45,280 nucleotides of DNA from Paracoccaceae bacterium. GTDB lineage: Bacteria > Pseudomonadota > Alphaproteobacteria > Rhodobacterales > Rhodobacteraceae. The position numbers were made by a program, and so were the translations under genes. Under the pieces are notes generated by a model. That model had not been told where the DNA came from and made no database searches. It worked only from the letters and a program-made list of their open reading frames with translations. Location: contig JABSSD010000091.1 of assembly GCA_013214575.1 (NCBI GenBank), positions 1-45,280 of the forward strand, written 5' to 3'. Shown piece by piece: positions 2,227 through 20,335 of the stretch (position 1 is its first letter; the number at the start of each line of letters is the position of its first letter).

Positions 2227-3750
2227 TTACATGACGGCACCTATTTGCCAGGGGACGAACTCGAAATCGCCCAACCCCTGCGACTCGGATTTGCTTTGTT
2301 TTCCTGAAGCGACTTCCAAAATGTAATCGAAAATTTCCCGACCGACGGCTTCCACAGTCCTGTTGTCGCTGACAATGGATCCGGCGTTGATGTCGATGTC
2401 TTCCGGCATCCGGACGAACAGGGCAGAGTTTGAGCCGACTTTGACAGTCGGCGCTGGTTTGGAACCAAAGACCGAGCCGAGCCCGGTCGTGAACACCACT
2501 ATGTTGCAGCCCGAGGCGATTTCGCCGGTAATCGAGGCGGGGTCGTAGCCGGGGCTGTCCATGAAAACAAACCCCTTACGGTCGATCACTTCCCCGTATT
2601 TGTAAAAACCGTTGAACGGTGTGGTGCCGCCTTTGGCCACCGCGCCCAGCGATTTTTCCAGAATTGTGGTCAACCCACCGCGCTTGTTGCCCGGGCTTGG
2701 GTTGTTGTCCATCGAGCCGTCGTTGATCTTGGTGTAGTGTTCCCACCAGCTAATCCGGTCGAGCAGATCCTGCGCAGTTTTTTCGTCAGAGGCACGGCAG
2801 GTCAGCAGATGCTGTGCACCGTAAATCTCGGGGGTCTCGGCCAGCACTGCGGTGCCACCTTGGCGCACCAACAGATCCGATGCGTATCCTAGCGCTGGGT
2901 TGGCAGTCACCCCCGACCAGCCATCCGAGCCACCGCATTGCAGCGCCAGCGTCAGCTCTGAGGCTGGTGCCGGGGTGCGTTGGTCGGCGTTAACGACTGG
3001 CAGCATTTCGCGCACCTGGGCAATCCCGGCCTCGACGGTTTGTCGGAGCCCGCCCATGGTCTGAATGTTCATGCTGCGCACTCTGGGCCCCTGTTTCAGC
3101 CCATAAGCCTCAAGCAGGAAATCGATCTGGTTGACCTCACAACCGAGGCCGACAAACAGAACACCGCCCACATTCGGGTTGCGCGCATAGCCCCAGAGCA
3201 CCCGCTGCAGATTGCCAAAGCCCTCACTGTTGGTGGCCATCCCGCAGCCCGTGCCATGAGAGAAGGCCGCAACACCGTCGACATTTTCAAATTTTGCCAG
3301 CTCTGCGTCCGAGATGCCTTGCGCGATCATATGGGCGGCGGTGGCGGAACAATTGACCGAGGTCAGCACAGCGATGAAGTTGCGGGTGCCAACCTTGCCG
3401 TTTGCGCGGTGATAGCCCTGGAAGGTGGCGCGCTGATCTTCGGGCATATAATCGACGGGATTGGCATCAACCCCGATGCGATAGTCCAGATCGACCGCAC
3501 TGAATTCCAGATTGTGGCTGTGTACATGTGATCCGGGTGCAATATCAGCGCTGGCAAAGCCGATGACTTGCCCGTATTTGCGCACCGCGTCACCTTTGGA
3601 GATGGCGCAAGTCGCCAATTTGTGCCCCGAGGGCACCGGGTTTTGGACGGCAATCCCGTCCAGATCCATTCCGGGCGCTAGCGCCTGGGTAGCAATAACC
3701 ACATTATCGGCCTGGTTGAGGCGGACGAAAGAGGGTGAGCTGATCTGCAT
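2227..3750 (-). CDS. UxaA-family sugar-acid dehydratase (altronate/galactarate dehydratase type)
   Basis: The 507-residue product has the architecture of the UxaA/GarD family of iron-dependent hydro-lyases. A SAF-type domain occupies about residues 10-85, followed by the catalytic region with GTRNFIAVLTSVNCSA, FSHGTGCGM, LALQCGGSDGWSG, NPSPGNKRGG and a C-terminal GCNIVVFTTGLGS. These enzymes remove water from a 2,3-dihydroxy acid to give a 2-keto-3-deoxy acid. The length is normal for the family. I chose ATG 3750 because AAGGAAGATC lies directly before it; the longer frame upstream overlaps the thiolase gene. It is the last gene of the nine-gene operon, 17 bases after the thiolase. The substrate cannot be read from the sequence; the lactonase in the operon suggests an aldonate such as L-fuconate. 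Confidence 0.85.
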   Translation of the reverse strand: MQISSPSFVRLNQADNVVIATQALAPGMDLDGIAVQNPVPSGHKLATCAISKGDAVRKYGQVIGFASADIAPGSHVHSHNLEFSAVDLDYRIGVDANPVDYMPEDQRATFQGYHRANGKVGTRNFIAVLTSVNCSATAAHMIAQGISDAELAKFENVDGVAAFSHGTGCGMATNSEGFGNLQRVLWGYARNPNVGGVLFVGLGCEVNQIDFLLEAYGLKQGPRVRSMNIQTMGGLRQTVEAGIAQVREMLPVVNADQRTPAPASELTLALQCGGSDGWSGVTANPALGYASDLLVRQGGTAVLAETPEIYGAQHLLTCRASDEKTAQDLLDRISWWEHYTKINDGSMDNNPSPGNKRGGLTTILEKSLGAVAKGGTTPFNGFYKYGEVIDRKGFVFMDSPGYDPASITGEIASGCNIVVFTTGLGSVFGSKPAPTVKVGSNSALFVRMPEDIDINAGSIVSDNRTVEAVGREIFDYILEVASGKQSKSESQGLGDFEFVPWQIGAVM

Positions 3751-3767
3751 GATCTTCCTTTCAGGTT

Positions 3768-4952
3768 TTAGCTGGCGTTTTCGACGATCATGGCGATGCC
3801 CTGACCGCCACCAATACACATGGTGGCCAGCCCGTACCGGCCATTTTGGCGTTTCAGTTCGTGAACAAGTTTGGTCAAAATAATGGCGCCCGAGGCCCCG
3901 ATCGGATGGCCAAGGGCGATGGCACCACCATTGGGGTTGACCCGGTCCGGGTCGAACCCCAGGTCTTTGCTGACAGCGCAGGCTTGGGCGGCGAAAGCCT
4001 CGTTGGATTCGATCACATCAATCTGATCAAGGCTCAGCCCGGCGCGGGCGATGGCCTGTTTCACTGCCGGCACCGGCCCCAGCCCCATCACCCGGGGTGC
4101 CACCCCACCCAGACCGTAAGACACGATACGCGCCAAGGGCGCGGCGCTGCTGTTACAGATTTTTTCGCCACTGGCCAGAACCAGCGCGGCGGCGCCGTCA
4201 TTGATCCCCGAGGCATTTCCGGCGGTAACGCTGCCGTCTTTCTGAAACACAGGGCGCAGGTTCTCGAAATCCTCGATCTGGGCGTTCATGCGCAAATGCT
4301 CATCAGTATCGAATGTGATTGTTTTTCGACCCTGGCGGATCTCAAGGGGCAGGATTTGTTCCGCGAAATATCCGTTGGTGATCGCTGACGCGGCGCGACG
4401 GTGGGAAGCCAGGGCGGCGGCGTCCTGCTCGGACCGTGAGATGCCGCATTCCTGGGCAATGTTTTCGGCGGTGACGCCCATATGACCGTTGCCAAACGGA
4501 TCGGTCAGAGCCCCTGCTATCATGTCCGTAGCCCGTACGTCACCCATTTTTTGCCCAAACCGGGCGGATGACAGCAAGTGCCCTGCGCGACTCATATTTT
4601 CGGCGCCGCCCGCGACAGACAGGCCCACATGGCCTAGTGCGATACCGTCGGAAGCAGTCACCACGGCCTGAAGACCGCTGCCGCACAGGCGGTTCAGGGT
4701 CAGTGCCGGGGCGGTTTCAGGGATACCTGCAGCAATAGCGGCCACGCGGGATAGATACATATCCTGGGGCTCGGTGTGGATCACGTTTCCAAAGACCGAA
4801 TTTTCAACCTCTCTGGCAGAGAACCCTGACCGTTCAATGGCTTCGGCGGTCACTTTGGCCGCCAGCTCGGTCGGCGCAATACCAGCCAGCGCTCCCCCGA
4901 ATGTACCGATTGCGGTGCGTACTGCGGATAGGATGAAAATGTCTGTCGTCAT
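3768..4952 (-). CDS. Acetyl-CoA acetyltransferase family thiolase
   Basis: The 394-residue protein has all thiolase landmarks. The acyl-accepting cysteine lies in LNRLCGSGLQ (about residue 89), the histidine in GGAIALGHPIGASGA (about 350) and the second cysteine in MCIGGGQG (about 380). It cleaves a 3-ketoacyl-CoA with CoA to acetyl-CoA plus a shortened acyl-CoA, or runs in reverse. The start overlaps the stop of the preceding small gene by four bases (ATGA), implying translational coupling. Its place after the kinase/acyl-CoA-dehydrogenase trio suggests it performs the final carbon-carbon cleavage of the operon's pathway. The chain length of the substrate is unknown. Confidence 0.93.
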   Translation of the reverse strand: MTTDIFILSAVRTAIGTFGGALAGIAPTELAAKVTAEAIERSGFSAREVENSVFGNVIHTEPQDMYLSRVAAIAAGIPETAPALTLNRLCGSGLQAVVTASDGIALGHVGLSVAGGAENMSRAGHLLSSARFGQKMGDVRATDMIAGALTDPFGNGHMGVTAENIAQECGISRSEQDAAALASHRRAASAITNGYFAEQILPLEIRQGRKTITFDTDEHLRMNAQIEDFENLRPVFQKDGSVTAGNASGINDGAAALVLASGEKICNSSAAPLARIVSYGLGGVAPRVMGLGPVPAVKQAIARAGLSLDQIDVIESNEAFAAQACAVSKDLGFDPDRVNPNGGAIALGHPIGASGAIILTKLVHELKRQNGRYGLATMCIGGGQGIAMIVENAS

Positions 4953-5341
4953 GTTGGGATGGCTCCATTTGGCAGGGTATCAGCATGCTTTTCCAAAAAT
5001 TTGGGGTTGCTTTCGGCCAGCCTGGACAGGGTTATCGAGGTTAAGACGTCAAGCATCTGGCAGTGATTGTCTGATCCCGGATCAAAGATTCCTTCTCGAA
5101 TCTTCTGGCACAAAGTCGCGTGCACATCGTCAGGCGTATCGGTGAGCAGAGCGGTAATTTGGCGGACTTCGATTGCTGACATTTCGCTGGAACCGTGAAA
5201 CTGGCGCTGCGCAATGGCCATTGCGTTGGCAATCATCAGCGCCTTGTATTTTAGGTCTTCGGGCAGGATCGGTTGCACTTCACGCAAGAATTCGGCGCGG
5301 GCGATATGCAGCAAGTCGGCTCCGTCAGGCTGATCGCGCAT
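4949..5341 (-). CDS. Small kinase-partner protein (LvaB/DUF6285-like)
   Basis: The 130-residue protein begins MRDQPDGADLLHIARAEF and contains the segment YKALMIANAMAIAQRQF. It looks like the small all-helical proteins (DUF6285 type, as I recall the name) encoded beside APH-like kinases and acyl-CoA dehydrogenases. In the levulinate pathway of Pseudomonas putida the equivalent protein, LvaB, is needed with the kinase LvaA to phosphorylate 4-hydroxyacyl-CoA. Here it overlaps the kinase gene by 17 bases and the thiolase gene by four, so it is almost certainly cotranslated with both. ATG 5341 is preceded by AAGAGGTG. It has no signal peptide and should be cytosolic. The domain name is from memory; the gene-order argument is stronger. 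Confidence 0.7.
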   Translation of the reverse strand: MRDQPDGADLLHIARAEFLREVQPILPEDLKYKALMIANAMAIAQRQFHGSSEMSAIEVRQITALLTDTPDDVHATLCQKIREGIFDPGSDNHCQMLDVLTSITLSRLAESNPKFLEKHADTLPNGAIPT

Positions 5342-6350
5342 GGGGCACCTCTTGGGTCAGAGTCAGAATGTCATGCTCCAGTTCGGGCACAATCTGGCGG
5401 GTTAGGGCCAGTTCCAGAGATGGTTCGGTGCCACTCAGGTGGCGTTCACCCTGCGCCAGCGCGATCACCGCCCATCGCAGGGTGGCCATCACCTGCCAAT
5501 ACCGAAGGTTGGCCAGATCGGGCGATTGGCCACTGACGTCGACATATCCTGTCATGAAATCGCCCAGTGCGCCGATGCCCCCGGCCACGCGCGCATCCGA
5601 GCCAAACCGCCAGCAGCGGGCGGTGAACCAGCCGATGTCCTGCATCGGATCGCCCCAGGCGGCAAATTCCCAGTCCAGAATTCCGGTCAGGATCTCGCCA
5701 TCGACCATATAGTTGCCGGTGCGGTAATCATTGTGGCACAGTACAATTGTCTCGGTCCCAGGAGCGTTAATCTCAAGCCATCTGATACCCCATTCTACCA
5801 CTGGCTGTGGCGCCCTAATCGCGTCCAGCGCTGCACGTAGCGCCCGCACCTCATCCAGCGCTGGGGCAGCGCCCGGCTCGAGCAGGAACCCCAATGCCAC
5901 AACCGGTGGACGGACAGAATGGATGCGGGCCAACTCAGCACCCAGATCCCTTGCCAGAGATGGTGAACCCTGCGGCAACGCCCGCACCAGCCGGTGTCCG
6001 GCAGCGGTGCCCACCAGCCGCCGCATCACAAACAGCGGCCGTTCCATGGCCGTACCGCTGTCAAGAAACCACAGGGGCTCGGGCACTTTGATCCCAGCCT
6101 CCCAGGCGATCTGGAACAGACTAAATTCCTGCGCCCTGGACAGGCTGACATCCAGAACTGAAGCGGAATTAGTGCGTAACACGGTGTTCAGTCGGCCTGC
6201 ATGGCTGCCCCCGGTAAAATCGAGATCAAATAACCAGTTCTGCTGGATGGCGCCGCCTGTCAGCAGTCGGCACTCCAGCACCCGCGCCGATTGCGCGCCG
6301 GTCCGCGCCGCAAGGGCATCGGCGATCTTTTGCTGTGTTGCGATGTCCAT
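5325..6350 (-). CDS. Aminoglycoside-phosphotransferase-like kinase (LvaA/ACAD10-type)
   Basis: The 341-residue protein has the protein-kinase-like APH fold. The catalytic loop HNDYRTGN lies near residues 205-212 and the metal-binding ILDWEFAAWGDP near 222-233. In this subfamily (LvaA, and the kinase domain of animal ACAD10/11) the substrate is a hydroxyacyl-CoA rather than an antibiotic: the 4-hydroxyl group is phosphorylated so that it can leave later. The gene starts two bases after the stop of the acyl-CoA dehydrogenase and overlaps its small partner. That constant trio, not the motif alone, is the reason for not calling it a resistance gene. Phosphorylation of a hydroxyacyl-CoA is inferred. 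Confidence 0.85.
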   Translation of the reverse strand: MDIATQQKIADALAARTGAQSARVLECRLLTGGAIQQNWLFDLDFTGGSHAGRLNTVLRTNSASVLDVSLSRAQEFSLFQIAWEAGIKVPEPLWFLDSGTAMERPLFVMRRLVGTAAGHRLVRALPQGSPSLARDLGAELARIHSVRPPVVALGFLLEPGAAPALDEVRALRAALDAIRAPQPVVEWGIRWLEINAPGTETIVLCHNDYRTGNYMVDGEILTGILDWEFAAWGDPMQDIGWFTARCWRFGSDARVAGGIGALGDFMTGYVDVSGQSPDLANLRYWQVMATLRWAVIALAQGERHLSGTEPSLELALTRQIVPELEHDILTLTQEVPHARSA

Positions 6351-6352
6351 GT

Positions 6353-7561
6353 TCAGGGCCCCCAGGACCAGAAATCGCTGCCTTCACGGTCATAGAACCC
6401 TGACAGGACCATTTTGTGCACTTCGCTAGCCCCATCGACCAGCCGCGCCTGCCGGGCATAGCGATAGATCCATTCCAGAACTGTGTCCTTGGAATAGCCG
6501 CGCGCACCGTTCAGTTGGATCGCTGTATCCACCGCGTTATGCAGCGTATCTGCCACCGCAATTTTGGCCATCGAAACCTCTTTGCGGGCGAAATCGCCCT
6601 GATCGAGCTTCCAGGCGGCGTTCATTACCAAGAGTCGGCCGACCTGGATGTCCATGGCAATCTTTCCCATGGCGTGCTGAATGCTCTCGCGCTCGCCCAG
6701 TAAACTGCCAAACGCCTCGCGGGTCCGGATATACTCTCGCGCTATCTCCATCGAGCGTTTTGACAGGCCCAGCCAGCGCATGCAGTGCGTCAGCCTCGCG
6801 GTACCCAAGCGGATCTGAGTGGCCTTCAGCCCATCGCCAATCTCCATCAGGCGGTTGGAATCGTCGATCTCAAGCCCGTCATATTCGATCTCGCAATGCC
6901 CGCCATGTTCCTCGGGGCCCATGATCGGAATGCGCCGTTCGATGCGCCAGCCGGGTTGATCCGCGTGGTAAAGAAAGGCCGAAAGCCCTTTGCGCGGGTC
7001 GTCCGACGTGCGTGCGATCAATATGAAATGCTTCGCGCCTTCAGCCCCGGTGATGAACCATTTGCGGCCTCTGATGATCCACTTGTCGCCTTTGCGGGTG
7101 GCTTTTGTCATCATCATACCAGACGGGTCCGAACCTGAACCTGGATGCGGTTCGGTCATGACAAAAGCCGACCGAACCTTGCCGTCGATGATCGGTTGCA
7201 GCCAGCGGTCTTTCTGTTCCTCGGTGGCAACCTTGTTCAAAAGGATCATGTTGCCGTCATCCGGGGCCGCCGAATTGAAACAGGCTGGGCCAAAGATTGA
7301 GCGGTTCATTTCCTCATAAAGAGCTGCCATACCCACGACGCTAATCTCCTGGCCACCGCGTGACCTGGGCATCTGGAAGGCCCACAATCCCTGGGCACGG
7401 GCCTGCGTGCGAATCTCGGCCAACAGACCCTCGCGGATGTTTTCATGCGGGTCAAACGACGCGGGATCGCTTTCCAGCGGCAGAACGTGGTGATCGACAA
7501 AAGTGCGGACTCGGGTGCGGTAGTTTTCTATTTGTGGAGAGAGTGTGAAATCCATGCTCAT
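6353..7561 (-). CDS. Acyl-CoA dehydrogenase family protein (ACAD10/11, LvaC-like)
   Basis: The 402-residue flavoprotein has the acyl-CoA dehydrogenase layout: a helical N-terminal domain, a middle barrel with SAFVMTEPHPGSGSDPSG (about 130-148) and a C-terminal helical domain with QLNGARGYSKDTVLEW. The catalytic region reads VDGASEVHKM instead of the usual YEGTxEI of fatty-acid enzymes. That is typical of ACAD10/11-type members. In the levulinate pathway the homologue LvaC acts on the 4-phosphohydroxyacyl-CoA and moves the functional group to position 3. The gene lies two bases upstream of the kinase, fitting this role. ATG 7561 was chosen; an internal ATG two codons later is also possible. 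Ordinary CoA-ester dehydrogenation is the alternative. Confidence 0.85.
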   Translation of the reverse strand: MSMDFTLSPQIENYRTRVRTFVDHHVLPLESDPASFDPHENIREGLLAEIRTQARAQGLWAFQMPRSRGGQEISVVGMAALYEEMNRSIFGPACFNSAAPDDGNMILLNKVATEEQKDRWLQPIIDGKVRSAFVMTEPHPGSGSDPSGMMMTKATRKGDKWIIRGRKWFITGAEGAKHFILIARTSDDPRKGLSAFLYHADQPGWRIERRIPIMGPEEHGGHCEIEYDGLEIDDSNRLMEIGDGLKATQIRLGTARLTHCMRWLGLSKRSMEIAREYIRTREAFGSLLGERESIQHAMGKIAMDIQVGRLLVMNAAWKLDQGDFARKEVSMAKIAVADTLHNAVDTAIQLNGARGYSKDTVLEWIYRYARQARLVDGASEVHKMVLSGFYDREGSDFWSWGP

Positions 7562-7570
7562 TTTCCTGTG

Positions 7571-8329
7571 TTAAAGACCCGACACCAAATGGCCGCCGTC
7601 AATTTCAATTGTTGCCCCGGTCATGAATCGCGACGCCTGTGAGGCCAGCAACAATACCGGTCCGTCCAGTTCGTCCAGTTGACCCAAACGTCGCATCGGC
7701 ACCCGACTGATCAGTGCCTGCCCGGCGTTGCTGGAAAAAAACTCCTGGTTGAGATCAGTCTCAAAATACCCCGGCGCCAGCGCGTTGACGCGGATATTGT
7801 GCCGCGCCCATTCCAGTGCCAGTTGCCGAGTCATCTGTACTACGCCGGCCTTGGATATCGCATATGGTGCAACGCCGCCGGCCACCCGCAGGCCCAGAAT
7901 CGAGGCGATGTTGATGATCGACCCGGCTCTCTCTTTGGCCATCATCCGCCGCGCCGCTTCGCAGGACACCAGCCAAACGCCGCGCAGGTTGGTGTCGATG
8001 GTGGTGTTCCATGTTTCCGGCGTAATCATTTCAGCGCGGCCACTGCCGGTGACACCAGCATTGTTGATCACCACATCCGCGCAGCCGAACCGTGCCTCGG
8101 CAACGTCGAATGCAGCCGCAACGCTGCTGTCCATAGTTACGTCCATCTGCGCGGCGACGGCGCTGATACCGTCCCGATCCAACTCTTTTACCAGCGCGTC
8201 AAGCAGGGGCTGCCGCCGTCCCGTCAGTGTGACCCGTGCGCCCTTTTCGCCGAAAAACCTGGCGAAATGCGCACCCAGCCCGCTGGTTGCACCGGTGATC
8301 AGAACGTGTTTGTTGCCGACGTCAAACAT
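7571..8329 (-). CDS. Short-chain dehydrogenase/reductase
   Basis: The 252-residue product is a classical SDR. The NAD(P)-binding motif is TGATSGLG, followed by NNAGVTGSG, a catalytic serine in INIASILG and YAISK with the catalytic tyrosine and lysine. The C-terminus ends in EIDGGHLVSGL, as usual. The upstream gene ends TGATGATG: the first ATG overlaps the stop, but GGAGG is seven bases before the second ATG (8329), which I prefer. Possible roles are oxidation of a sugar to its lactone, feeding the fuconolactonase-like enzyme next door, or oxidation of a hydroxyacyl-CoA intermediate. The sequence does not decide between these. Confidence 0.88.
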   Translation of the reverse strand: MFDVGNKHVLITGATSGLGAHFARFFGEKGARVTLTGRRQPLLDALVKELDRDGISAVAAQMDVTMDSSVAAAFDVAEARFGCADVVINNAGVTGSGRAEMITPETWNTTIDTNLRGVWLVSCEAARRMMAKERAGSIINIASILGLRVAGGVAPYAISKAGVVQMTRQLALEWARHNIRVNALAPGYFETDLNQEFFSSNAGQALISRVPMRRLGQLDELDGPVLLLASQASRFMTGATIEIDGGHLVSGL

Positions 8330-8331
8330 CA

Positions 8332-9165
8332 TCAAGCCTCCAGACGATAGAATTTGGTGGCGGTTCCGGACCAGATTGCCTGTTGTTCGACCGGGTTGAG
8401 CCCGGTTAGCAGAATTTCGGTGATCGCTACCCATTGTGCGTAAGTTCCGGCAATATTGAGCACCGGCCAGTCCGACCCCCACATCAGCCGGTCAGGGCCG
8501 AAGATATCCAGGAGGTGATCCACATAGGGGCGCAATTGATCGGCATCAGAATCGGGGCCTGCCTCGGTCAGCAGGCCAGACAGTTTGCAATGGACATTGC
8601 TCTGGCTAGCGACGTCGCGCATCTCAGCAGCCCAATCGTCAAATTTCCCGGCGGCGATCTGCGGTTTCATGCCATGATCGATCACCGTGCGCATGTCGGG
8701 GTGGCGGTTGAACAGCTTGCCAAACGTACCAGCGTGGCGGGCAAACCCCAGCGCTTCGAACACCAGATCAAAGTGCTGGATAGCCTCGAACGCCCATGTC
8801 AGATCGTCTCGCAGCACCCAGTTGTCCTGCGGGATTTCCTGCACCATCGGGCGCAAACCCAGAAACTTAGGATGATTGGCAAAACGGGCGATCTGCTCGC
8901 GTTGGTTCGGATCCTCGAAATCGACCCAGCCGATCACCCCGGCGATCCAGTCGGTCGCATCCGCCAACCCCAGAAGGTAATTAGTTTCCGCCAGAGTCCA
9001 GGCAGCCTGAACCAGGATGGTCTTGTCGACCCCCGCCGCCCGGCGCGCCGGATCAAGATGGCGCGGAAGATAATCGCGCGCCCAGGTCGCATGGTCGGCT
9101 CCAATCCAGTGGTAGTCCTGTCGTGAAATGGACCAGCAATGGTGATGTGCGTCGATCTTGTTCAT
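8332..9165 (-). CDS. Amidohydrolase_2 / L-fuconolactonase-like sugar lactone hydrolase
   Basis: The 277-residue protein is a TIM-barrel amidohydrolase of the L-fuconolactonase/L-rhamnono-lactonase group. It starts IDAHHHCW with the HxH metal site at residues 7-9, has VIDHGMKP in the middle and ends with MWGSDWPV, whose aspartate is the catalytic acid/base. Family members open 1,4- or 1,5-lactones of deoxy sugars, or 4-sulfomuconolactone-type lactones. It overlaps the following SDR gene by one base and lies 18 bases after the aldehyde dehydrogenase. Together with a UxaA dehydratase and a sugar ABC transporter it points to a sugar-lactone substrate. The exact lactone is not known. Confidence 0.85.
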   Translation of the reverse strand: MNKIDAHHHCWSISRQDYHWIGADHATWARDYLPRHLDPARRAAGVDKTILVQAAWTLAETNYLLGLADATDWIAGVIGWVDFEDPNQREQIARFANHPKFLGLRPMVQEIPQDNWVLRDDLTWAFEAIQHFDLVFEALGFARHAGTFGKLFNRHPDMRTVIDHGMKPQIAAGKFDDWAAEMRDVASQSNVHCKLSGLLTEAGPDSDADQLRPYVDHLLDIFGPDRLMWGSDWPVLNIAGTYAQWVAITEILLTGLNPVEQQAIWSGTATKFYRLEA

Positions 9166-9183
9166 AAGGTTTACCCGCCCTGA

Positions 9184-10632: not shown

Positions 10633-10644
10633 TGGATAGCTTTC

Positions 10645-13600: not shown

Positions 13601-14124
13601 ACCGGTATCATTGCATCAACAAAGGCAAATTCGCTTTGATGCGAAGTGGTCGAGGATTCACAGGTGTGGTCGTCGCCAAACACCGCCAGCACGCCGCCAA
13701 ATGGCGAAGTACCGGATAAGTTGGCGTGGCGAAAAGCATCGCCGGTCCGGTCGACGCCTGGCCCCTTGCCATACCACAGGCCAAAAACTCCGTCATACTT
13801 GCCATCGCCGCGTAGTTCGGCCTGCTGCGTGCCCCAGAGCGCGGTGGCAGCCAGATCCTCGTTCAGACCCGGTTCATAAACCACTCCCGCCGATTCAAGG
13901 ACGTTCTTAGCCAGACCAAATTGCGCATCTACTGCCCCCAGCGGCGAGCCGCGATAACCAGTAACATAACCCGCAGTGTCTTTGCCCCGAGTCTCGTCCA
14001 GCGCCGATTGCGCTAGACATAGCCGGACCAGCACCTGTGTGCCGGTGGCATAAACATTCGCTTTGTCCAGATCATATTTATCCGACAGGCTGACGTCACG
14101 CAGGGTTGTATCCATATGGCTCAT
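10645..14124 (-). CDS. Fused 2-oxoacid (indolepyruvate-type) ferredoxin oxidoreductase
   Basis: The 1159-residue single-chain enzyme resembles the fused indolepyruvate ferredoxin oxidoreductases of Proteobacteria. Order: an N-terminal pyrimidine-binding and transketolase-like region, a thiamine-diphosphate domain with CAGCPHSTST (about 438-447), and a ferredoxin-like segment with ICEGCGDCSIQSNC near 640 and CNKDFSCLKGFC near 675. The gamma domain has VITGIGGTGVVTIG (about 720) and a family-specific C-terminal region completes it. Such enzymes convert a 2-oxoacid plus CoA to acyl-CoA, CO2 and reduced ferredoxin. It is the first gene of the operon, with AGGAG before ATG 14124 and a palindromic site further upstream. 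In this context it could decarboxylate a 2-keto-3-deoxy sugar acid; aromatic 2-oxoacids are the classical alternative. Confidence 0.9.
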   Translation of the reverse strand: MSHMDTTLRDVSLSDKYDLDKANVYATGTQVLVRLCLAQSALDETRGKDTAGYVTGYRGSPLGAVDAQFGLAKNVLESAGVVYEPGLNEDLAATALWGTQQAELRGDGKYDGVFGLWYGKGPGVDRTGDAFRHANLSGTSPFGGVLAVFGDDHTCESSTTSHQSEFAFVDAMIPVLNPANIQELFDYGLHGWALSRFAGVWTALKCVKDNVESTASVNVDTDAVPIILPELDNMPQGGLSIRRVDTPQEQEARLHQHKIRAVLEYTRANGLNRTTLPKSDDSRIGIVTTGKSYSDTVQALAELGVDEQIATKLGLTLFKVAMPWPLEPTGVRDFAAGLEQIIVIEEKRGLIEDQLRSVLFNEPTRPVVVGKHDEEDNVLFPSEGALEPVMIADILARRLAALCPANEQTLSTAMARIAVVRDAVLNITQDRRTPYFCAGCPHSTSTKLPEGKRGYAGIGCHWMSQFMNRGVDGYTHMGGEGANWIGESKFSTNPHMFQNVGDGTYNHSGIMAIRAAAKTDTNITFKILNNDAVALTGGQQLEGDLNSAIIAREVIAAGAKKTVLVTDDPARHVGELKPPAGVEILHRDQLIAVQKRLAEIPGVTVLIYEQTCAAELRRRRKRKSIPDPARRVFINSDICEGCGDCSIQSNCVAILPKETEDGRKRQIDQSACNKDFSCLKGFCPSFVTVEGGQLRKPKPKTPDAGTLPNPVKTPDLAKPYSMVITGIGGTGVVTIGAILGMAAHLEGKGCGIIDMAGLAQKGGAVASHIKFAARPADISTIRVSSGGADLILACDTLVLADPAVSKTLRNGHTIFIANTHETMTGAFIHNRDFRLPTANLVETLQAQAGVENSSLIDATALATALMGNTIAANMFLLGFAYQSGHIPLSAKAISKAIVLNGTAVAMNQSAFDWGRVQAIDPAKVSAEAGLNGQRSEPVPPSLDQQIQRRAAILSRYQDAAYAKRYVDLVERIRTSETRLAGAAGLLSETVALTAYRLMAYKDEYEVARLHCDGTFAAEIARTFEGEYQLKYHLAPPMLSRINKDTGRPEKQEFGRWILPAMRLLAPLKVLRGTKFDIFGKTEERKRERAMVTEFEVLMTEVASNLTAANLTAAIALATLPQEIRGFGPVKMQAFETYDTALIAARHAFADASTNNRSAA

Positions 14125-14151
14125 TCGTATCTCCTGGTGATTTTTTTGGAA

Positions 14152-14163
14152 ATTGTATACGAT
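14152..14163. promoter_or_regulatory. Candidate GntR-type operator upstream of the catabolic operon
   Basis: ATTGTATACGAT is a near-perfect palindrome (five of six pairs) 28 bases before the first gene of the operon. Its core TTGTATAC matches the usual FCD-type GntR half-site layout. A sister site, ATTGTATGCAAT, lies before the transporter. It probably overlaps the operon promoter, in the AT-rich gap between the regulator and the oxidoreductase genes. Binding is inferred from symmetry and recurrence only. Confidence 0.5.
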
Positions 14164-14349
14164 TCTTTTAGAATGGCAAGCATCGCAAGCTCGAAAACTC
14201 AGAATTCAAAAATTCGAACAAAGCGATACATTTTACCTTATAAAAACAATGGGATACGAAAGATATGAAAATGACATGAGAATATACTTGGCAGTTTTCT
14301 GCGGAAGAAATTTCTGAATATGGACTGCCTGTCTACAAAAATTTTTACT

Positions 14350-15036
14350 TCAAGACAGGTTGGTGTTGAGAATTTTTTCGAGACCAAGCTTGAGGACTTC
14401 GATGGAATCCGCCTCGGTAAAAGTGAGATGTTCTATCAGGGTGGCTTTGGCGGCGGCGGCGTCTCGGCGCAGCATTGCGTCGGCAATTGTGGTGTGGTGT
14501 TTGAAGTTGGCCCCGGCTCGTACCGCGTGCTTGACCTCAATCCGCCTGACAAAGCGGATGCGCGCACTGATATTACTCAGCATGTCGACCAGGATAGGAT
14601 TGCCGGATGCCTCTGCGATCATCTCGTGAAAGCGCTCATCATGTCTTGCCATGGTTAGGGAATTGGTCTTGGGCGCTCGTTTTTCGACTCGCTTCCAGAA
14701 CGCGCTGATAGCACGCAGTGCCTGATCGTCGGCGCGCTTGACGGCAAGTTCAACAGCCACCAACTCCAACCCTAAGCGTGTTTCAGCCTGAAAAAACAAC
14801 TCATTAGCAGTTATTGTTCGGCAAAAAAATCCTCGGTTCTTCTGAAAAGTTATCAGTCCCTCTGTGACCAGGCGATTAAGGGCTTCTCGAACAGGTGTGC
14901 GACTTACGTTCATCTTTTCTGCCAGTTGAGACTCTTTGATTGTCTGCCCGGGGACGAAGTCATAATCGATCGCCATCTCGCGGATCTTTGAATAAACTTC
15001 CGCGCCGGAAATGCGCTTTGTGTTCTCTTGCGGCAT
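14350..15036 (-). CDS. GntR-family transcriptional regulator, FCD type
   Basis: The 228-residue protein has an N-terminal winged helix (VYSKIREMAIDYDFVPGQ, then SQLAEKMNVSRTPVREALNRL) and a C-terminal all-helical FCD ligand domain with metal-site histidines in ARHDERFHEMI and HHTTIADA. Two in-frame ATGs compete: ATG 15048 lies inside ATGGAGGAACCAATG, and its GGAGG is the ribosome site for ATG 15036, which I chose. It lies between the divergent transporter and the operon, transcribed with the operon but separated from it by 225 bases. It is the obvious candidate to repress both units until a sugar acid or related metabolite binds. Confidence 0.9.
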   Translation of the reverse strand: MPQENTKRISGAEVYSKIREMAIDYDFVPGQTIKESQLAEKMNVSRTPVREALNRLVTEGLITFQKNRGFFCRTITANELFFQAETRLGLELVAVELAVKRADDQALRAISAFWKRVEKRAPKTNSLTMARHDERFHEMIAEASGNPILVDMLSNISARIRFVRRIEVKHAVRAGANFKHHTTIADAMLRRDAAAAKATLIEHLTFTEADSIEVLKLGLEKILNTNLS

Positions 15037-15485
15037 TGGTTCCTCCATATTTTGCGTCCGTGCGCTCCCCGTTTTCGGGGCGGTTCAGGCTTAGGTTTCG
15101 GTTTCTCCATCTTTAGCATTACCGGTTCAGTGTGGAGACAGTCAATGTACAACATCACATTCTGAAATGCGGCATGCAATTTTGATAAATTCTTCCAAAT
15201 TACATGTGCTACAAATTTGTACTATTGGTATGAGAGCATCTAAAGTGTTGAAATAGAGCGTTAAAATATTCACCTCATAGCGAAAATCCTCCAACATATT
15301 TCATTGAACGTTGTGGATTGATTTTCAAGATATTGTATGCAATTCATAATTTAGATGCTGAGTCTGGATAGATTCGACTGACTTGTCTCAATGAAGAGGA
15401 AATTGGGCGATCGTCGCAAGAACTGGCGTCCGGATAGTAGAAACTAAGATTGCAGACAGGTTGTTCTGCGTAAGGGAGGACTATT
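15037..15485. other. Divergent regulatory region between regulator and transporter
   Basis: These 449 AT-rich bases hold no gene I can support. They should contain the promoters of the GntR gene (leftward) and the ABC transporter (rightward). Besides the operator-like site at 15332-15343 there are looser resemblances to its half-sites around 15145-15153 (TGTACAAC) and 15172-15181 (GCATGCAAT). GGGAGGAC before 15486 is the ribosome site of the binding-protein gene. Confidence 0.6.
15332..15343. promoter_or_regulatory. Candidate GntR-type operator upstream of the sugar transporter
   Basis: ATTGTATGCAAT is palindromic at five of six pairs and matches the site at 14152-14163 in 9 of 12 positions, giving the shared consensus ATTGTATACAAT. 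It lies about 140 bases before the substrate-binding-protein gene. The sharing of one motif by both divergent units suggests that the local GntR regulator controls import and catabolism together. Confidence 0.5.
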
Positions 15486-16475
15486 ATGAAGACTGTTTTG
15501 AAAGGAATCGTTGTTGCTGCAAGCTTGGCGATGACGGGCACGGTTGCATTGGCGGACGGTAAGTTTGCGGTGTCACTTGGCTGGCAGGAAAACGAGTCTG
15601 GCCAGCGCCAGACCGTGGGTTTCGAAGAAGCGTTTCTCGACAAGGGTGTTGACGCCGGTGATGTTCTCTATTCCAACGCCAATTATGATCCCAAGCTGCA
15701 AAGTGAGCAGATTGACGCGTTTATCAAAACCAACCCTAAGGCGCTGTTTGTAACGCCGTCAGATCCGGCGGGCATCACTCAGGCTGTACAACGGGCGATT
15801 GACGCGGGCATTCCGGTATTTGTCGCCGACGCGATTATTGCGGGTGTTCCAGCGGTCACTTCGATCACCTCGAACGACTTTGGTATGGGCGTCTATTCAA
15901 TGCGTTGGCTGATCGACAAAATCGGCGGCAAGGGCAAGATCGCAATGGTTGACTTACCCAATAACGAAGCCTGGGATCTTCGTGGCCAAGGCGCCCGTTA
16001 TGAGCTGAGCCAGCATCCCGAAGTCGAACTGGTGGCCAAGTGGTCTTATGACACAACCGGTGCCGTGTCACCGCGCCAGGCAATCGAAAACATGCTGACC
16101 GCTAACCCTGCGGGCAATCTTGACGGTATCTGGAACGCCTGGGACGGTGCTGCCATGGAAGGCGCGCTGGCCATCAAGGCAGCTGGTCGCGCTGGCGAGA
16201 TCACCACAACTGGTATCGACGGCGGTGAGTATTCCTTTTCGATCATGTCTTCGGGTGACGTGTTTGGCCTGACTATGGCTCAAAGCATCTACTATATGTC
16301 CTACAACAGCGTTCACTATGCGATGGAATATCTCGACGGAAATACCGTACCGCGATTCATCATAGCGCCGGTCTATGCGGTGACCCCAGAAGTTCTGGGC
16401 GAATCCCCGGCAGACGCTTTCAACTATGACATCCCCGGTGTCGCGAAGTCTTACGGTTGGAAGCCCGTTCTCTGA
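15486..16475 (+). CDS. Sugar ABC transporter, periplasmic substrate-binding protein
   Basis: The 329-residue precursor has a Sec signal peptide (MKTVLKGIVVAASLAMTG, cut near VALA-DGK) and then a type I periplasmic binding fold of the ribose/rhamnose/autoinducer-2 class (Peripla_BP_4). Visible segments include SLGWQENESGQRQ, DAFIKTNPKALFVTPSDPAG and TTTGIDGGEYSF. It would capture a sugar or sugar derivative and deliver it to the two permeases encoded downstream. GGGAGGAC precedes the ATG. A strong hairpin with a T run follows the stop, as is common where binding protein must be made in excess. The sugar is unknown; the neighbouring operon suggests a deoxy sugar, aldonate or lactone. Confidence 0.92.
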   Translation: MKTVLKGIVVAASLAMTGTVALADGKFAVSLGWQENESGQRQTVGFEEAFLDKGVDAGDVLYSNANYDPKLQSEQIDAFIKTNPKALFVTPSDPAGITQAVQRAIDAGIPVFVADAIIAGVPAVTSITSNDFGMGVYSMRWLIDKIGGKGKIAMVDLPNNEAWDLRGQGARYELSQHPEVELVAKWSYDTTGAVSPRQAIENMLTANPAGNLDGIWNAWDGAAMEGALAIKAAGRAGEITTTGIDGGEYSFSIMSSGDVFGLTMAQSIYYMSYNSVHYAMEYLDGNTVPRFIIAPVYAVTPEVLGESPADAFNYDIPGVAKSYGWKPVL

Positions 16476-16500
16476 CCAACCTGGCTTGGCCAAACATTAT

Positions 16501-16525
16501 GGGCGGCCTTGCGGCCGCCCTTTTT
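16501..16525 (+). terminator. Hairpin with T run between binding-protein and ATPase genes
   Basis: GGGCGGCC and GGCCGCCC form an 8-base-pair GC-only stem around a TTGC loop, followed at once by TTTTT. The form is that of an intrinsic terminator, yet it lies inside the operon between the first and second genes. It probably stops part of the transcripts and protects the 3' end of the binding-protein message, giving more binding protein than membrane components. Confidence 0.75.
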
Positions 16526-16548
16526 ACGAAAACCATCGGAGACCTGTC

Positions 16549-18063
16549 GTGCAGCATCTGAGCCTGAAAATGTCCAACATCACTAAGAAGTTTCCTGGTG
16601 TCCTGGCCCTGGATAACGCAGATTTCGAGCTGGCCAAGGGCGAAGTTCATGCGCTGCTGGGCATCAACGGTGCCGGAAAATCGACCTTGATTAAAGTTCT
16701 GGCTGGGATCAATTCAATAGACAGCGGCCAGATATGGGTCGATGGCGTCGAGACGGTTATCGATGGGACGCGCAGATCGAAAGAGCTGGGCATTGCCACC
16801 GTCTATCAGGCGCCCGAGATGATTCCGTCATTTTCCGGGTACGAAAATGTCTTTCTGGGCGTCGAATCCAGTAAGCGTGGCCTGTTTCCTTTTATCAACC
16901 GCAAGGCGCTCCGCAAGAAGGCAAACGAAGTCCTCGAAGAGTTTCCGATTGATATCGATCTCGATAAACCGATTTCCGACCTCGCGCCGATCGAGCGCGA
17001 AGGGGTTGCCATCCTACGGGCCTTGGTACTGGAAAATATCTCAATCCTGATTTTGGACGAACCGACTTCGATTCTCAGCCACCGCGAAGCCGAAACCTTG
17101 TTCGAGATGATCGCGGCGATGAAGGGACGGGGCGTTTCTATTATCTATATTACCCATAACCTTGAAGAAGTGTTCATCGTATCTGACCGGTTCACGGTGT
17201 TCCGCAACGGTCGTAATGTAGGAACATATGAGTCCGATCGCAGCAATTATTCCCATAATGATGTGGCTGAACTGATGCTGGGCGACAAGATGACCAGTAT
17301 CTATCCAGACAAATCCGAGACAATTGGCGATCCGCTTTTTTCGATCCGCGAACTGTCGCACGGGACGGATTTCCAGAATGTCTCGATCAAATTTCACGAG
17401 CGCGAAATTGTTGGCGTATTTGGACTGGTGGGCTCGGGCATCGACGAACTGTGCAAGACCATGTTCGGCGATTTGCGGCCCGATGCTGGTCAAATCACGG
17501 TCAAGGGCAAGGATGTCGCCCTTAAGTCCTGCGCCGACGCAATTAACGAGGGCATTTTCTTGGTGCCCGGGGATCGCCACGCCGAGGGCTATATCAGCGA
17601 CGAAAGCGTCGCCTTCAATGTTACGCTGTCGAAGCTGCCCGGTATTTCCAAATTCGGGTTTGTGAACCGCAAGACAGAGAAAAACGCGACGCTGAAGTTA
17701 ATCGACAAGTTGAAGATCGCGCCGGGCGATCCCTATGGCAACATCTCGAAACTGAGCGGAGGCAACCAGCAAAAGGCGGTTATGGCCAAGGGGTTTTACA
17801 CCGAATCCGATATCTATATTTTCCAGGAGCCGACGGTTGGTGTCGACGTAGGGGCCAAGGCCCTGATTTATCGGGCTATCCGGGACCTGTCAGAGACTTG
17901 CGCCACAATGGTGATCTCATCCGATTGTGAAGAGGTCTACGGCATCGCTGACCGGATTGTCGTCATCTTTGAGGGCAAAGTGGTGCTGAATGCCAAGACC
18001 TCGGAAGTGTCGCTGGACGATGCGCTGGTCCATGGCCTGGCCGGAGGGCATGATAATGTCTGA
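16549..18063 (+). CDS. Sugar ABC transporter ATP-binding protein (double NBD, RbsA/MglA type)
   Basis: The 504-residue protein has two tandem nucleotide-binding domains. The first carries a good Walker A (GINGAGKSTLIK) and Walker B (ILILDEPTS), but its signature region reads LAPIERE, unlike LSGGQ. The second has a degenerate Walker A (FGLVGSGIDEL), as usual in this family, and an intact LSGGNQQKAVMAKG. I chose the GTG at 16549, preceded by ATCGGAG, since the longer frame upstream runs through the hairpin and lacks family sequence. ATG 16570 is an alternative. It powers uptake with the two permeases. The weak first signature is probably natural to this subgroup. Confidence 0.9.
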   Translation: MQHLSLKMSNITKKFPGVLALDNADFELAKGEVHALLGINGAGKSTLIKVLAGINSIDSGQIWVDGVETVIDGTRRSKELGIATVYQAPEMIPSFSGYENVFLGVESSKRGLFPFINRKALRKKANEVLEEFPIDIDLDKPISDLAPIEREGVAILRALVLENISILILDEPTSILSHREAETLFEMIAAMKGRGVSIIYITHNLEEVFIVSDRFTVFRNGRNVGTYESDRSNYSHNDVAELMLGDKMTSIYPDKSETIGDPLFSIRELSHGTDFQNVSIKFHEREIVGVFGLVGSGIDELCKTMFGDLRPDAGQITVKGKDVALKSCADAINEGIFLVPGDRHAEGYISDESVAFNVTLSKLPGISKFGFVNRKTEKNATLKLIDKLKIAPGDPYGNISKLSGGNQQKAVMAKGFYTESDIYIFQEPTVGVDVGAKALIYRAIRDLSETCATMVISSDCEEVYGIADRIVVIFEGKVVLNAKTSEVSLDDALVHGLAGGHDNV

Positions 18064-19012
18064 GGTCAATAAATCCCTCGTCGCCTTTCTGACTTTTCTG
18101 GCGGCCATCCTTTTGATGTTCACCTTGCAAAGCGAGTATTTTCTGACCGTTTCCAACTTTCTGCAGGCGTTCAAACACCTATCGATCACCGCTATTGCCG
18201 CGTTAGGGTTGTGTTTTGTCGTGGCGGTCGGCAAGGCAGACATGTCGTTCCACTTCTTCAGCTGTTTTGCCGCCATGGCAATGAGCTATTTCATCAGCAT
18301 TGGGTATGGCCCAGTTTTTTCGGTATTGGCATCGCTTCTGCTGATCGCCAGCCTAGGCCTGCTGAACGGGATTCTGGTCGGTCGTTTCGGCCTGCCGGAC
18401 ATGGTCACCACGATTGGCACCGGTACAGCGGTGTTTGGACTGGCCTATCTATTTAGTGGCGGCAGATACATTTACCGCAATTTCATCGACAGTGGAATCA
18501 TGCAGTTGAATGACGGCAAGCTGTTCGGAACAATCCCAATACCGGTCGTAGTGATGGTGGCACTGTATTTTCTCAGCTGGCTGCTGCTGCACAAATCCAA
18601 ATACGGGCGCAACTTCTATGCAGTCGGCAACAAGCCCCTGGCGGCGCGGTTCTCGGGCATTAAAGTGGCACGCTATCTCGCCATCGCCTTTGTCATCAGC
18701 GCCCTTTTTGCGTCAATCGCCAACATGGTGCAAGTCTCTGCTCAAGGTAAGGGCGAGATCCGCGCGGGGGTGACGCTTTTGATGCCGGCCTGGGCGGCAG
18801 TTTTTGTCGGGATTTCTATTTTCAAAAAACCTACCGTCTACGGTACTTTCATTGGCGCATTCATGATTTCGATCATGCAGAACGGATTCACCCTGTTATC
18901 GGTACCCTTCTACTACATGGATTTTGTGGTGGCACTATCGCTGATCGGATCGATCATTCTGGCCAATTTCGACGTGATCACAACCTGGATAAATAAGAAA
19001 AGGAGGGGCTGA
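18056..19012 (+). CDS. Sugar ABC transporter permease 1 (RbsC-like)
   Basis: The 318-residue membrane protein has about eight to ten hydrophobic segments and the BPD_transp_2 pattern of ribose-type permeases, including SITAIAALGLCFVVAVGKADMS (second helix and loop) and ARFSGIKVARYLAIAFVISA. It overlaps the ATPase gene by eight bases (ATGTCTGA). GGAGGG lies eight bases before ATG 18056; ATG 18050 is too close to it. It should form the translocation pore with the second permease in the inner membrane. Confidence 0.9.
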   Translation: MSEVNKSLVAFLTFLAAILLMFTLQSEYFLTVSNFLQAFKHLSITAIAALGLCFVVAVGKADMSFHFFSCFAAMAMSYFISIGYGPVFSVLASLLLIASLGLLNGILVGRFGLPDMVTTIGTGTAVFGLAYLFSGGRYIYRNFIDSGIMQLNDGKLFGTIPIPVVVMVALYFLSWLLLHKSKYGRNFYAVGNKPLAARFSGIKVARYLAIAFVISALFASIANMVQVSAQGKGEIRAGVTLLMPAWAAVFVGISIFKKPTVYGTFIGAFMISIMQNGFTLLSVPFYYMDFVVALSLIGSIILANFDVITTWINKKRRG

Positions 19013-19015
19013 TCA

Positions 19016-19975
19016 ATGAGAATCAATCTGTTCAAGCGTGATAATGTGCTGGTGTGGGCATTGCTGGTGCTGGTACTGTTCTTTTCGTTCATTTCACCGG
19101 ACTTCCGTAGGCTCGACAACCTTTTCGAAATCCTGCGTTCTTGCAGCCTGATAGCGTTGATGATTTTGGGCGTAACCTGGTTGGTGGCCAGTGGTGAAAT
19201 TGATGTCAGCTTTCCCAATATTGCTGCTTTTGCCAGCATCGTGACTGCCTATTGCATCAAGATCGGGATACCGTGGGGAGCAACGGTGGTGATCGCGCCG
19301 ATTTCCGCAATACCGCTTGGGCTGCTCAGCGCATTTCTGATCAATACTTTTCGCTTTCCAGCTCTGATCGCGACGATTGCTGTCGCGTCGGTTGCAACAT
19401 CTCTGGCCAGCATGGTGAATGGCGGGCAGCCGCTATATCTTGCCCATTCCAGCGATGTGGTGGAGTATTTTGTTTATGGAAAAATCGGAGGGCTTGTACC
19501 GGTTCTATTCCTGTTGGTTCTGGCATTGTTCTTTTTCGCCAAGTGGATTCAGGACAATACAACTGTCGGTCAGCATCTCTATGCGCTTGGCGAAAACCGC
19601 AAGGCCTCGCTCGAGGCGGGGATCAATGAAAAACGTATCATTCTGAGTATTTTTGTTTTGTCCGCACTTCTTGCCGGTATCAGCGGGGTGCTTCTGGCGG
19701 CTTCTTTCAGCTCGGGCCAGCCCAGGATTGGAGGCTCGTTCTTTATTGATGGGCTGACAGCAGTTTTTCTGGGCTCACTGATGGTGAAATTTGGCAAGCC
19801 GAACGTGATGGGGTCACTGATTGGTGCAATCATCATAGCCACGCTCAGTAACGGCATCACAATTCTTGGTATCCCGTTTTACGTAGGGACAATCACAAAA
19901 GGGCTACTGATGGCATTCTGTGTCGGTATCACTATGTTGAATCGCAAAAACAAAGCTCCCCAACTCCCTACTTAG
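19016..19975 (+). CDS. Sugar ABC transporter permease 2 (RbsC-like)
   Basis: The 319-residue membrane protein is a paralogue of the preceding permease. It has the same family layout, with ALMILGVTWLVASGEIDVS near residues 46-64 and LYALGENRKASLEAGI near 190. It begins three bases after the stop of permease 1, with GGAGGGGCTG before the ATG. The pore is therefore probably a heterodimer, as in other transporters with two permease genes such as those for rhamnose. This is the last gene of the transporter operon. Confidence 0.9.
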   Translation: MRINLFKRDNVLVWALLVLVLFFSFISPDFRRLDNLFEILRSCSLIALMILGVTWLVASGEIDVSFPNIAAFASIVTAYCIKIGIPWGATVVIAPISAIPLGLLSAFLINTFRFPALIATIAVASVATSLASMVNGGQPLYLAHSSDVVEYFVYGKIGGLVPVLFLLVLALFFFAKWIQDNTTVGQHLYALGENRKASLEAGINEKRIILSIFVLSALLAGISGVLLAASFSSGQPRIGGSFFIDGLTAVFLGSLMVKFGKPNVMGSLIGAIIIATLSNGITILGIPFYVGTITKGLLMAFCVGITMLNRKNKAPQLPT

Positions 19976-20027
19976 GGGCTGGGACGTGGCTGAAGCCATC
20001 TTTGTAGGCTGGGCATGTGGCGAGATT

Positions 20028-20049
20028 ACGCTCTCAATTATGGGAGCGT
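20028..20049 (+). terminator. Weak hairpin after the transporter operon
   Basis: ACGCTCTC and GGGAGCGT pair (8 base pairs, one G-T) around AATTAT, about 50 bases after the last permease gene. There is no clear T run after it, so termination is only possible. The remaining bases from 19976 to 20261 show no gene. Confidence 0.35.
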
Positions 20050-20261
20050 TCTGCGAACTGCCGGATAGGATACCACCGCGCATTAGCTAACGAGTAGAGG
20101 GGGCCTCAAACCCCGGCCCGGTCATCTGGCGAACCCAATTGCATGAAGTACGCGCCAGGAGCATCAGGCAGGGAGCGACAAAAATTCAACTGAGGGCGAA
20201 ACTATGTTCCATAGTTGCCTTGACCTTAAAATTTCTATGAAATAGGAAGTGAAACTGTAGA

Positions 20262-20335
20262 GCGGGCGTTGTGTAATGGTAAGACCTCAGCCTTCCAAGC
20301 TGATGACACGGGTTCGATTCCCGTCGCCCGCTCCA
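20262..20335 (+). tRNA. tRNA-Gly (anticodon TCC)
   Basis: The 74 bases fold into a full cloverleaf. The acceptor GCGGGCG pairs with CGCCCGC, the D loop contains AATGGTAA and the anticodon stem is CAGCC around CTTCCAA. The T arm is ACGGG-TTCGATT-CCCGT, and CCA is encoded. The anticodon TCC reads GGA/GGG glycine codons. A second copy of the 3' half follows about 90 bases downstream, so the gene has probably served as an integration target. Confidence 0.95.

Follow-up and report, generated by a model that had tools for sequence, protein, structure and literature searches.

A nine-gene operon

The DNA analysed here (the window) is a 45,280-nucleotide stretch of a Paracoccaceae genome (contig JABSSD010000091.1 of assembly GCA_013214575.1). 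It contains nine adjacent minus-strand genes at 2227-14124 that combine predicted sugar-acid enzymes, a 2-oxoacid:ferredoxin oxidoreductase and homologues of the levulinic acid (Lva) enzymes, and that may degrade a sugar acid through CoA thioesters. The genes, identified from the open reading frames (ORFs) of the window and by family searches, overlap or are separated by no more than 18 bp:

10645..14124, minus strand: IOR, a single-chain indolepyruvate-type 2-oxoacid:ferredoxin oxidoreductase with DUF6537 (PRK13030; Pfam POR, DUF6537)
9184..10632, minus strand: AldA-like aldehyde dehydrogenase (NCBIfam PRK10090, NF007497)
8332..9165, minus strand: amidohydrolase_2 sugar lactonase, fuconolactonase-like (NF052480 below cutoff; PDB 4dlf)
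7571..8332, minus strand: LvaD-type short-chain dehydrogenase/reductase (SDR) (50% identity to LvaD; tree)
6353..7561, minus strand: LvaC/ACAD10-11-type acyl-CoA dehydrogenase (ACAD) (45% identity to LvaC; signature residues)
5325..6350, minus strand: LvaA-type 4-hydroxyacyl-CoA kinase (predicted activity) of the APH family (51% identity to LvaA; Pfam APH)
4949..5341, minus strand: LvaB-like partner, DUF6285 (Pfam DUF6285; 41% identity to LvaB)
3768..4952, minus strand: BktB-like beta-ketothiolase (NF006552 above cutoff; catalytic motifs)
2227..3750, minus strand: UxaA/GarD-family dehydratase with SAF domain, ORF from 3819 with a likely ATG at 3750 (Pfam GD_AH_C, GD_AH_second, SAF)

The spacings computed from the ORF coordinates, in the order from IOR to UxaA, are 12, 18, -1, 9, 2, -17, -4 and 17 bp, and no stop codon interrupts the operon frames. 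From the spacing alone, we infer that the nine genes are cotranscribed. A scan found 11 promoter-like sites (6.4 expected) and 22 terminator-like sites (15.3 expected), none of which was used as evidence. The initial annotation had described nine families in this order on a single strand, opposite a sugar ATP-binding cassette (ABC) transporter, and Pfam and NCBIfam matches together with the coordinates confirm this layout. The nine family assignments stand, with two refinements: the SDR is now grouped with the lva-type genes, and what had been called a small partner is now specified as DUF6285/LvaB-like.

The lva-type module

The operon of the Pseudomonas aeruginosa plasmid p12939-PER, which comprises genes for a PrpR-type regulator, a kinase, lvaB, an ACAD, an SDR, an acyl-CoA synthetase and transport, was used as the lva reference; only lvaB is named on this plasmid, and LvaA, LvaC and LvaD were assigned by gene order. 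The window APH, DUF6285, ACAD and SDR proteins are 51, 41, 45 and 50% identical to the reference LvaA, LvaB, LvaC and LvaD, respectively. The alignment with the annotated LvaB covers 116 aa, with a Pfam DUF6285 score of 62 vs 28 bits, and the kinase carries the HxDxxxxN motif as HNDYRTGN. Judged by these comparisons, the SDR, ACAD, APH and DUF6285 genes appear to form a complete lvaDCAB-type set.

The activity of ACAD11 on 4-phosphoacyl-CoA has been tied to R626, H634 and R637 (the HCMR region) and to the catalytic D753, substitutions at which disrupt activity, and D220/N225 were modelled in the kinase, as described in passages of PMC12440821. In the window ACAD, equivalents of all four residues are present: the signature stretch RLGTARLTHCMR contains HCMR at residues 259-262 with an Arg at -8 of HCMR, and the catalytic Asp376 lies within VDGASEVH. 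After stretches with <250 aligned residues or E above 1e-20 had been dropped, R-R-HCMR was found in 36 of the 37 LvaC-type ACAD stretches from kinase-bearing loci (the exception is L088) and the Asp motif in all 37, while none of three unrelated ACADs (27-30% identical) has either signature. The top PDB relative of the window ACAD is ACAD11 (8v3u, the mouse enzyme according to the same passages, PMC12440821), narrowly above the putative ACAD 4hr3. Sequence identity and the ACAD10/11 signature residues thus support reading the kinase/partner/ACAD trio of the initial annotation as an LvaA/LvaB/LvaC set.

For the SDR, a tree was built with groups set beforehand, in which the distant SDRs (27-33%) of two kinase loci (L080 and L095) were placed in the other group. 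The window SDR and 27 module SDRs are split from 17 other SDRs by a branch with 96/96 support, and the SDRs of fucose-type clusters fall outside the group that holds the window SDR. The motifs TGATSGLG and YAISK are present. On the basis of the tree, an assignment as a fucose or other sugar dehydrogenase was rejected; since its gene belongs to the putative complete lvaDCAB-type set, the SDR is most likely LvaD-like. LvaD is described as reducing levulinyl-CoA in passages of PMC6692424.

Oxidoreductase, thiolase and sugar-acid enzymes

The IOR scores 1537 bits against the PRK13030 subfamily model (cutoff 816) and contains the motif CEGCGDC in its iron-sulphur region; two further IORs in the same genome are 50 and 45% identical to it. 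The thiolase, whose presence in the operon had been recognized from the start, exceeds the cutoff of the BktB subfamily model NF006552 (608 vs 565 bits) and falls short of that of the BktB equivalog NF042999 (584 vs 725 bits), and is therefore called BktB-like; its catalytic motifs NRLCGSG, NEAFA, GHPIGASG and CIGGGQG are all present. The AldA-like protein exceeds the PRK10090 (NF007497) cutoff (690 vs 500 bits) and contains LELGG and GQVC, and its top solved structures are those of Aldehyde dehydrogenase A, which we take to be of Escherichia coli origin.

The top NCBIfam model for the lactonase is L-fucono-1,5-lactonase (NF052480), with 215.8 bits against a cutoff of 400. Its sole PDB match at E<=1e-10 is 4dlf with its co-entries, and the motifs DAHHH and GSDWP are present. 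The UxaA/GarD-family protein matches its Pfam domains at the family level and has galactarate dehydratase 6u7l as its closest PDB match; it scores 388 bits against the galactarate dehydratase model TIGR03248 (cutoff 731), so that this model does not identify it as a galactarate dehydratase. The motifs quoted for the thiolase, AldA, SDR, IOR and lactonase presumably have their customary functional roles.

Proposed pathway

In the pathway that we propose, the lactonase would open an aldonolactone, and the UxaA-type dehydratase would convert the aldonate into a 2-keto-3-deoxy aldonate with hydroxyls on C4 and C5. Oxidative decarboxylation by the IOR would give a 3,4-dihydroxyacyl-CoA in which the former C5 hydroxyl is the 4-hydroxyl, the IOR thereby supplying the acyl-CoA, a part played by a CoA ligase in lva operons. 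LvaA/LvaB would phosphorylate the 4-hydroxyl and the LvaC-type ACAD would eliminate the 4-phosphate, which with a C3 hydroxyl present would yield the enol of a 3-ketoacyl-CoA for cleavage by the BktB-like thiolase. A 6-deoxyhexonate would give acetyl- and propionyl-CoA, and a pentonate two acetyl-CoA. The LvaD-like SDR may interconvert 4-oxo and 4-hydroxy (or 3-oxo and 3-hydroxy) acyl-CoAs.

This scheme gives a step to each of lactonase, dehydratase, IOR, kinase, partner, ACAD and thiolase. It fits the lack of hydratase and classical 3-hydroxyacyl-CoA dehydrogenase genes: Pfam and NCBIfam searches of the operon proteins found no second dehydratase, enoyl-CoA hydratase or classical 3-hydroxyacyl-CoA dehydrogenase, and no CoA ligase. 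The same searches found no LvaE CoA ligase, LvaR sigma54 regulator or LvaF/G transport in the operon, which is not a complete levulinate lva operon. Our preferred reading, held tentatively and at slightly below even probability, is that the operon has an accessory catabolic function and degrades a sugar, a sugar lactone or an aldonate through an IOR-made acyl-CoA, the kinase/ACAD pair and thiolysis. Its specific chemistry is a more doubtful possibility: the IOR would turn the 2-keto-3-deoxy aldonate directly into 3,4-dihydroxyacyl-CoA and the levulinate-type kinase and ACAD would yield 3-ketoacyl-CoA, with no aldolase, hydratase or 3-hydroxyacyl-CoA dehydrogenase, and with electrons saved on ferredoxin.

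Several observations weigh against this reading. AldA has no place in the proposed scheme, nor does the scheme need LvaD, which points to a 4-oxoacyl-CoA, a compound not directly given by a 2-keto-3-deoxy acid. A PDB search at E<=1e-5 returned no relative of the IOR, and the specificities of IOR, lactonase and dehydratase are predicted from family only. A second nine-gene set, and with it the conserved nine-gene order that the initial annotation had envisaged, was absent from all neighbourhoods examined, which are a part of those of the relatives listed from genome samples (queried with kinase, dehydratase, IOR and thiolase) and plasmids (queried with kinase, dehydratase, IOR, lactonase and ACAD). 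IOR was found in none of the 30 neighbourhoods of close kinases from the class sample, and none of the 40 neighbourhoods of the best-scoring class IORs besides that of the window has the kinase, DUF6285, LvaC-type ACAD or BktB-like thiolase; in both sets, several neighbourhoods were cut by contig ends. The IOR-lva cluster of a Cupriavidus plasmid, described below, has no sugar genes and no LvaC-type ACAD matched in 25 kb.

Distribution of the module

Relatives of the kinase were detected in 3 of the 148 other family-sample genomes (E<=1e-60), all three loci having SDR, ACAD and kinase and no IOR, and in 30 of 384 other genomes of the class sample (E<=1e-70, at most five candidates scored per genome). 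An LvaC-type ACAD lies beside the kinase in 24 of these 30 class neighbourhoods, and DUF6285 was matched by tblastn in 17. A scan of named genomes gave one weak kinase match (31%) in a metagenome-assembled genome, where no other window gene was detected. IOR is present in 177 of 385 class genomes including that of the window (two candidates per genome were scored, so that third copies were missed). A thiolase search of 341 order genomes returned seven other matches; in three of these neighbourhoods, the same 20 kb also holds an LvaC-type ACAD and a kinase that is more distant (25-27%). The locus L130 reads SDR, ACAD, AMP-binding CoA ligase, kinase and thiolase, with the ligase in place of IOR.

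Dehydratase relatives were found in 171 other genomes of 340, and neither IOR nor kinase in the eight such neighbourhoods examined. Many genomes of the order have UxaA relatives of 62-67% identity, and a Thalassococcus plasmid has one beside tripartite ATP-independent periplasmic (TRAP) transporter and uronate genes. In another genome of the family to which the window belongs (L118), a lactonase relative (52%) has a UxaA relative (58%) in its vicinity, which supports that pairing. One genome (G564) was not counted as a case of linkage: its UxaA relative lies ~9 kb from a kinase/ACAD pair, beside TRAP-transporter genes, and the contig that carries its IOR is a different one and lacks the module. 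A Massilia putida plasmid (L028) carries an lva-type set of ACAD, SDR, kinase, DUF6285 and thiolase genes, after which come genes for a CoA ligase, a hydratase and a dehydrogenase; the set thus appears to be part of a larger acid-degradation locus.

In many of the examined loci, SDR, ACAD, APH and DUF6285 genes occur together as a module of their own, which favours an alternative in which one promoter serves two functions, the lactonase, dehydratase, AldA and transporter using a sugar acid and the IOR, lva-type set and thiolase a separate hydroxy- or oxo-acid. AldA, lactonase and UxaA also have kin in other contexts. However, the module lies between the lactonase and dehydratase genes, from which only overlaps or very short gaps set it apart, and the operon has no CoA ligase for a separate acid, so we consider this arrangement unlikely.

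A second IOR-lva cluster in Cupriavidus

Among 55 plasmid records with a kinase relative, 9 of the 12 best-ranked were inspected, and IOR was found in one of the nine, Cupriavidus pinatubonensis p2. Like the window, the p2 cluster has LvaA-, LvaB-, LvaD- and BktB-type genes, an IOR and a GntR regulator, and its kinase, DUF6285, IOR, SDR, thiolase and adjoining GntR are 40, 30, 52, 52, 59 and 40% identical to those of the window. Unlike the window, it has a DapA-family gene at its head (L043:11022-11954) and a branched-chain-type ABC transporter, and no lactonase or UxaA was matched in 25 kb. A phylum-level query with the Cupriavidus kinase gave 0 of 349; the 20 genomes listed all belong to the family of the window, and the empty result is uninformative.

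The window and Cupriavidus SDRs are sisters (96/88), whereas the IORs (in a quick-method tree) and the thiolases do not pair. Common ancestry of the two IOR-lva pairings is contradicted by the IOR and thiolase trees and backed only by the SDR pair, the kinase tree being without resolution. IOR therefore probably came together with an lva-type set and a BktB-like thiolase on two occasions (n=2), and separate assembly argues for a function, although with two cases only.

The DapA family includes keto-deoxy-acid dehydratases, and the Cupriavidus cluster could reach levulinyl-CoA if its DapA-family protein were one. A corresponding route in the window would begin with a second dehydration of the 2-keto-3-deoxy acid, for which the gene would lie at another locus. 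From the resulting 2,5-dioxo acid, the IOR would make a 4-oxoacyl-CoA such as levulinyl-CoA; LvaD reduction, LvaABC and general beta-oxidation would then lead to a 3-ketoacyl-CoA and thiolysis. LvaD would thereby have the role given to it in passages of PMC6692424, and the sister relationship of the two SDRs is consistent with such a route. On the other hand, the Cupriavidus protein scores above the cutoff for DapA proper and for no dehydratase model, and the window operon lacks the second dehydratase, enoyl-CoA hydratase and classical 3-hydroxyacyl-CoA dehydrogenase. We regard the levulinyl-CoA route as not very probable.

The IOR might instead serve an amino-acid-derived 2-oxoacid, with the sugar genes incidental. 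Azospirillum and Caballeronia plasmid IORs lie in clusters with D-amino-acid dehydrogenase, RidA and racemase genes, and Cupriavidus has such genes close by. In contrast, the window operon contains no amino-acid gene, its neighbouring transporter is of the sugar type, and in the quick tree its IOR does not lie next to those of Caballeronia and Cupriavidus, all of which makes this explanation improbable.

Candidate substrates

For the preferred sugar-acid pathway, the substrate initially suggested was L-fucose, via fuconate and 2-keto-3-deoxyfuconate (KDF). The top lactonase model and the resemblance of AldA to lactaldehyde dehydrogenase agree with this route. However, the lactonase falls far under the cutoff of that model, the SDR is of the LvaD type, and no enolase-type fuconate dehydratase, KDF dehydrogenase or FAH hydrolase was found in the operon by the Pfam and NCBIfam searches. 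Moreover, another contig of the same genome (C188) encodes a fuconate dehydratase that shares 75% identity with an annotated one; its neighbours are an SDR (56%) and an FAH hydrolase (65%) of the fucose pathway. No lactonase match was found in the fetched stretch of this cluster, where the contig ends ~1.5 kb past the dehydratase, a point in favour of keeping L-fucose. Since relatives of a conventional fucose cluster are present elsewhere in the genome, L-fucose is an unlikely substrate of the operon, and the full route through fuconate appears very improbable. Pentonates and other 6-deoxyhexonates remain as candidate substrates.

Relation to described pathways

The lvaABCDE levulinic acid pathway of Pseudomonas putida shares with the window the LvaA, LvaB, LvaC and LvaD homologues (41-51%) with their signature residues. 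In place of an LvaE-type ligase, LvaF/G transport and a sigma54-type regulator, the window has IOR, sugar lactonase, UxaA-type dehydratase, AldA, BktB-like thiolase and a sugar ABC transporter. Mammalian 4-hydroxyacyl-CoA catabolism by ACAD10/ACAD11 shares the logic of kinase and ACAD as well as the HCMR, upstream Arg and catalytic Asp; the window differs in having separate polypeptides, a proposed substrate with a 3-hydroxyl and a sugar-type operon.

A route from a sugar acid through CoA intermediates to a 3-ketoacyl-CoA and a thiolase has been proposed for deoxyribonate in Klebsiella michiganensis, with a CoA synthetase and a 3-hydroxyacyl-CoA dehydrogenase in the passages of PMC6365646 where the window has IOR and kinase/ACAD. 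EdcC, an IOR-family protein of estradiol degradation in Novosphingobium, was proposed with mutant evidence to make an acyl-CoA from a catabolic 2-oxoacid; it resembles the window IOR in family and proposed step, and differs in its steroid substrate and in that the passages name no kinase module (PMC7793797).

In open-licence PMC full text, no description of the combination of IOR, lva-type and sugar-acid genes was found among the matches listed, DUF6285 is not mentioned, and no text matched three of five operon family names together. Among the matches listed, dihydroxybutyryl-CoA or the like appears in polyester synthesis only, and the lva and ACAD terms lead to levulinate or ACAD10/11 work and otherwise to heart devices (LVAD). 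The initial claim that no described pathway has this combination therefore holds in part: the IOR-lva-sugar-acid combination looks new, but conversion of a sugar acid to thiolase substrates via CoA esters had already been proposed for deoxyribonate (passages of PMC6365646). The operon brings known parts together in an apparently new arrangement, and one chemical use that it makes of the lva module is possibly new.

If the proposed pathway is correct, sugar acids would have an aldolase-free CoA-thioester route to acetyl- and propionyl-CoA, and the range of lva/ACAD10-11 phosphate elimination, which the papers considered here describe for levulinate and 4-hydroxy fatty acids, would come to include polyhydroxy acids. 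LvaA/B/C-type enzymes might then have a role in sugar metabolism as well, and the enzyme set would be useful for making or degrading hydroxyacyl-CoAs from sugars.

Neighbouring genes and genomic site

A GntR/FCD gene in the same orientation lies 225 bp upstream of the operon, and the four genes of a sugar ABC transporter at 15486-19975 are divergent from the operon:

14350..15048, minus strand: GntR/FCD-family regulator (Pfam FCD and GntR)
15486..16475, plus strand: periplasmic sugar-binding protein (Pfam Peripla_BP_4; PDB sugar-binding relatives, best E 1e-19)
16426..18063, plus strand: sugar ABC transporter ATPase (Pfam ABC_tran; AraG model 424 bits, under cutoff 689)
17990..19012, plus strand: sugar ABC permease 1 (BPD_transp_2)
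19016..19975, plus strand: sugar ABC permease 2 (BPD_transp_2)

Across seven other genomes of the genus, neither the operon IOR (only 45-50% paralogs) nor the operon ACAD (E<=1e-60) was found. One of the genus genomes (G288) has DNA 94% identical to window 20219-25224, and window 1-140 matches it ~13.5 kb further on with 99% identity, with differing sequence between. The left edge of the shared DNA, at 20219, is 43 bp 5' of a tRNA-Gly gene (20262-20335); the breakpoint is thus 5' of the tRNA and not at its 3' end. The ~20 kb with the operon, the transporter and an IS110-type transposase ORF occupies a variable site beside tRNA-Gly. At the site corresponding to window 140-20219, G288:C1 (L190) has ~13.5 kb of other sequence that includes a match to an ABC-transporter ATPase.

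The IS110-type ORF (1047-1586) is roughly half as long as the family model. The 3' part of tRNA-Gly (20289-20335, 47 bp) is apparently repeated at 20426-20472, 137 bp downstream, with ~94% identity as deduced from cross matches, and is possibly an attachment-site scar or a decayed tandem tRNA. The GC content is 0.51-0.52 over the transporter (13500-21000), compared to 0.57-0.59 at 1.5-13.5 kb and 0.58-0.65 beyond 22.5 kb, hinting at separate origins. Further along the window, homologues of TmpB and TmpA (2-trimethylaminoethylphosphonate degradation), both above the NCBIfam cutoffs, are encoded at 20718-22456, divergent from a LysR-type regulator, and a malonyl-CoA synthase-like gene (35662-37194) lies near the large permease gene of a TRAP transporter (33099-34415).

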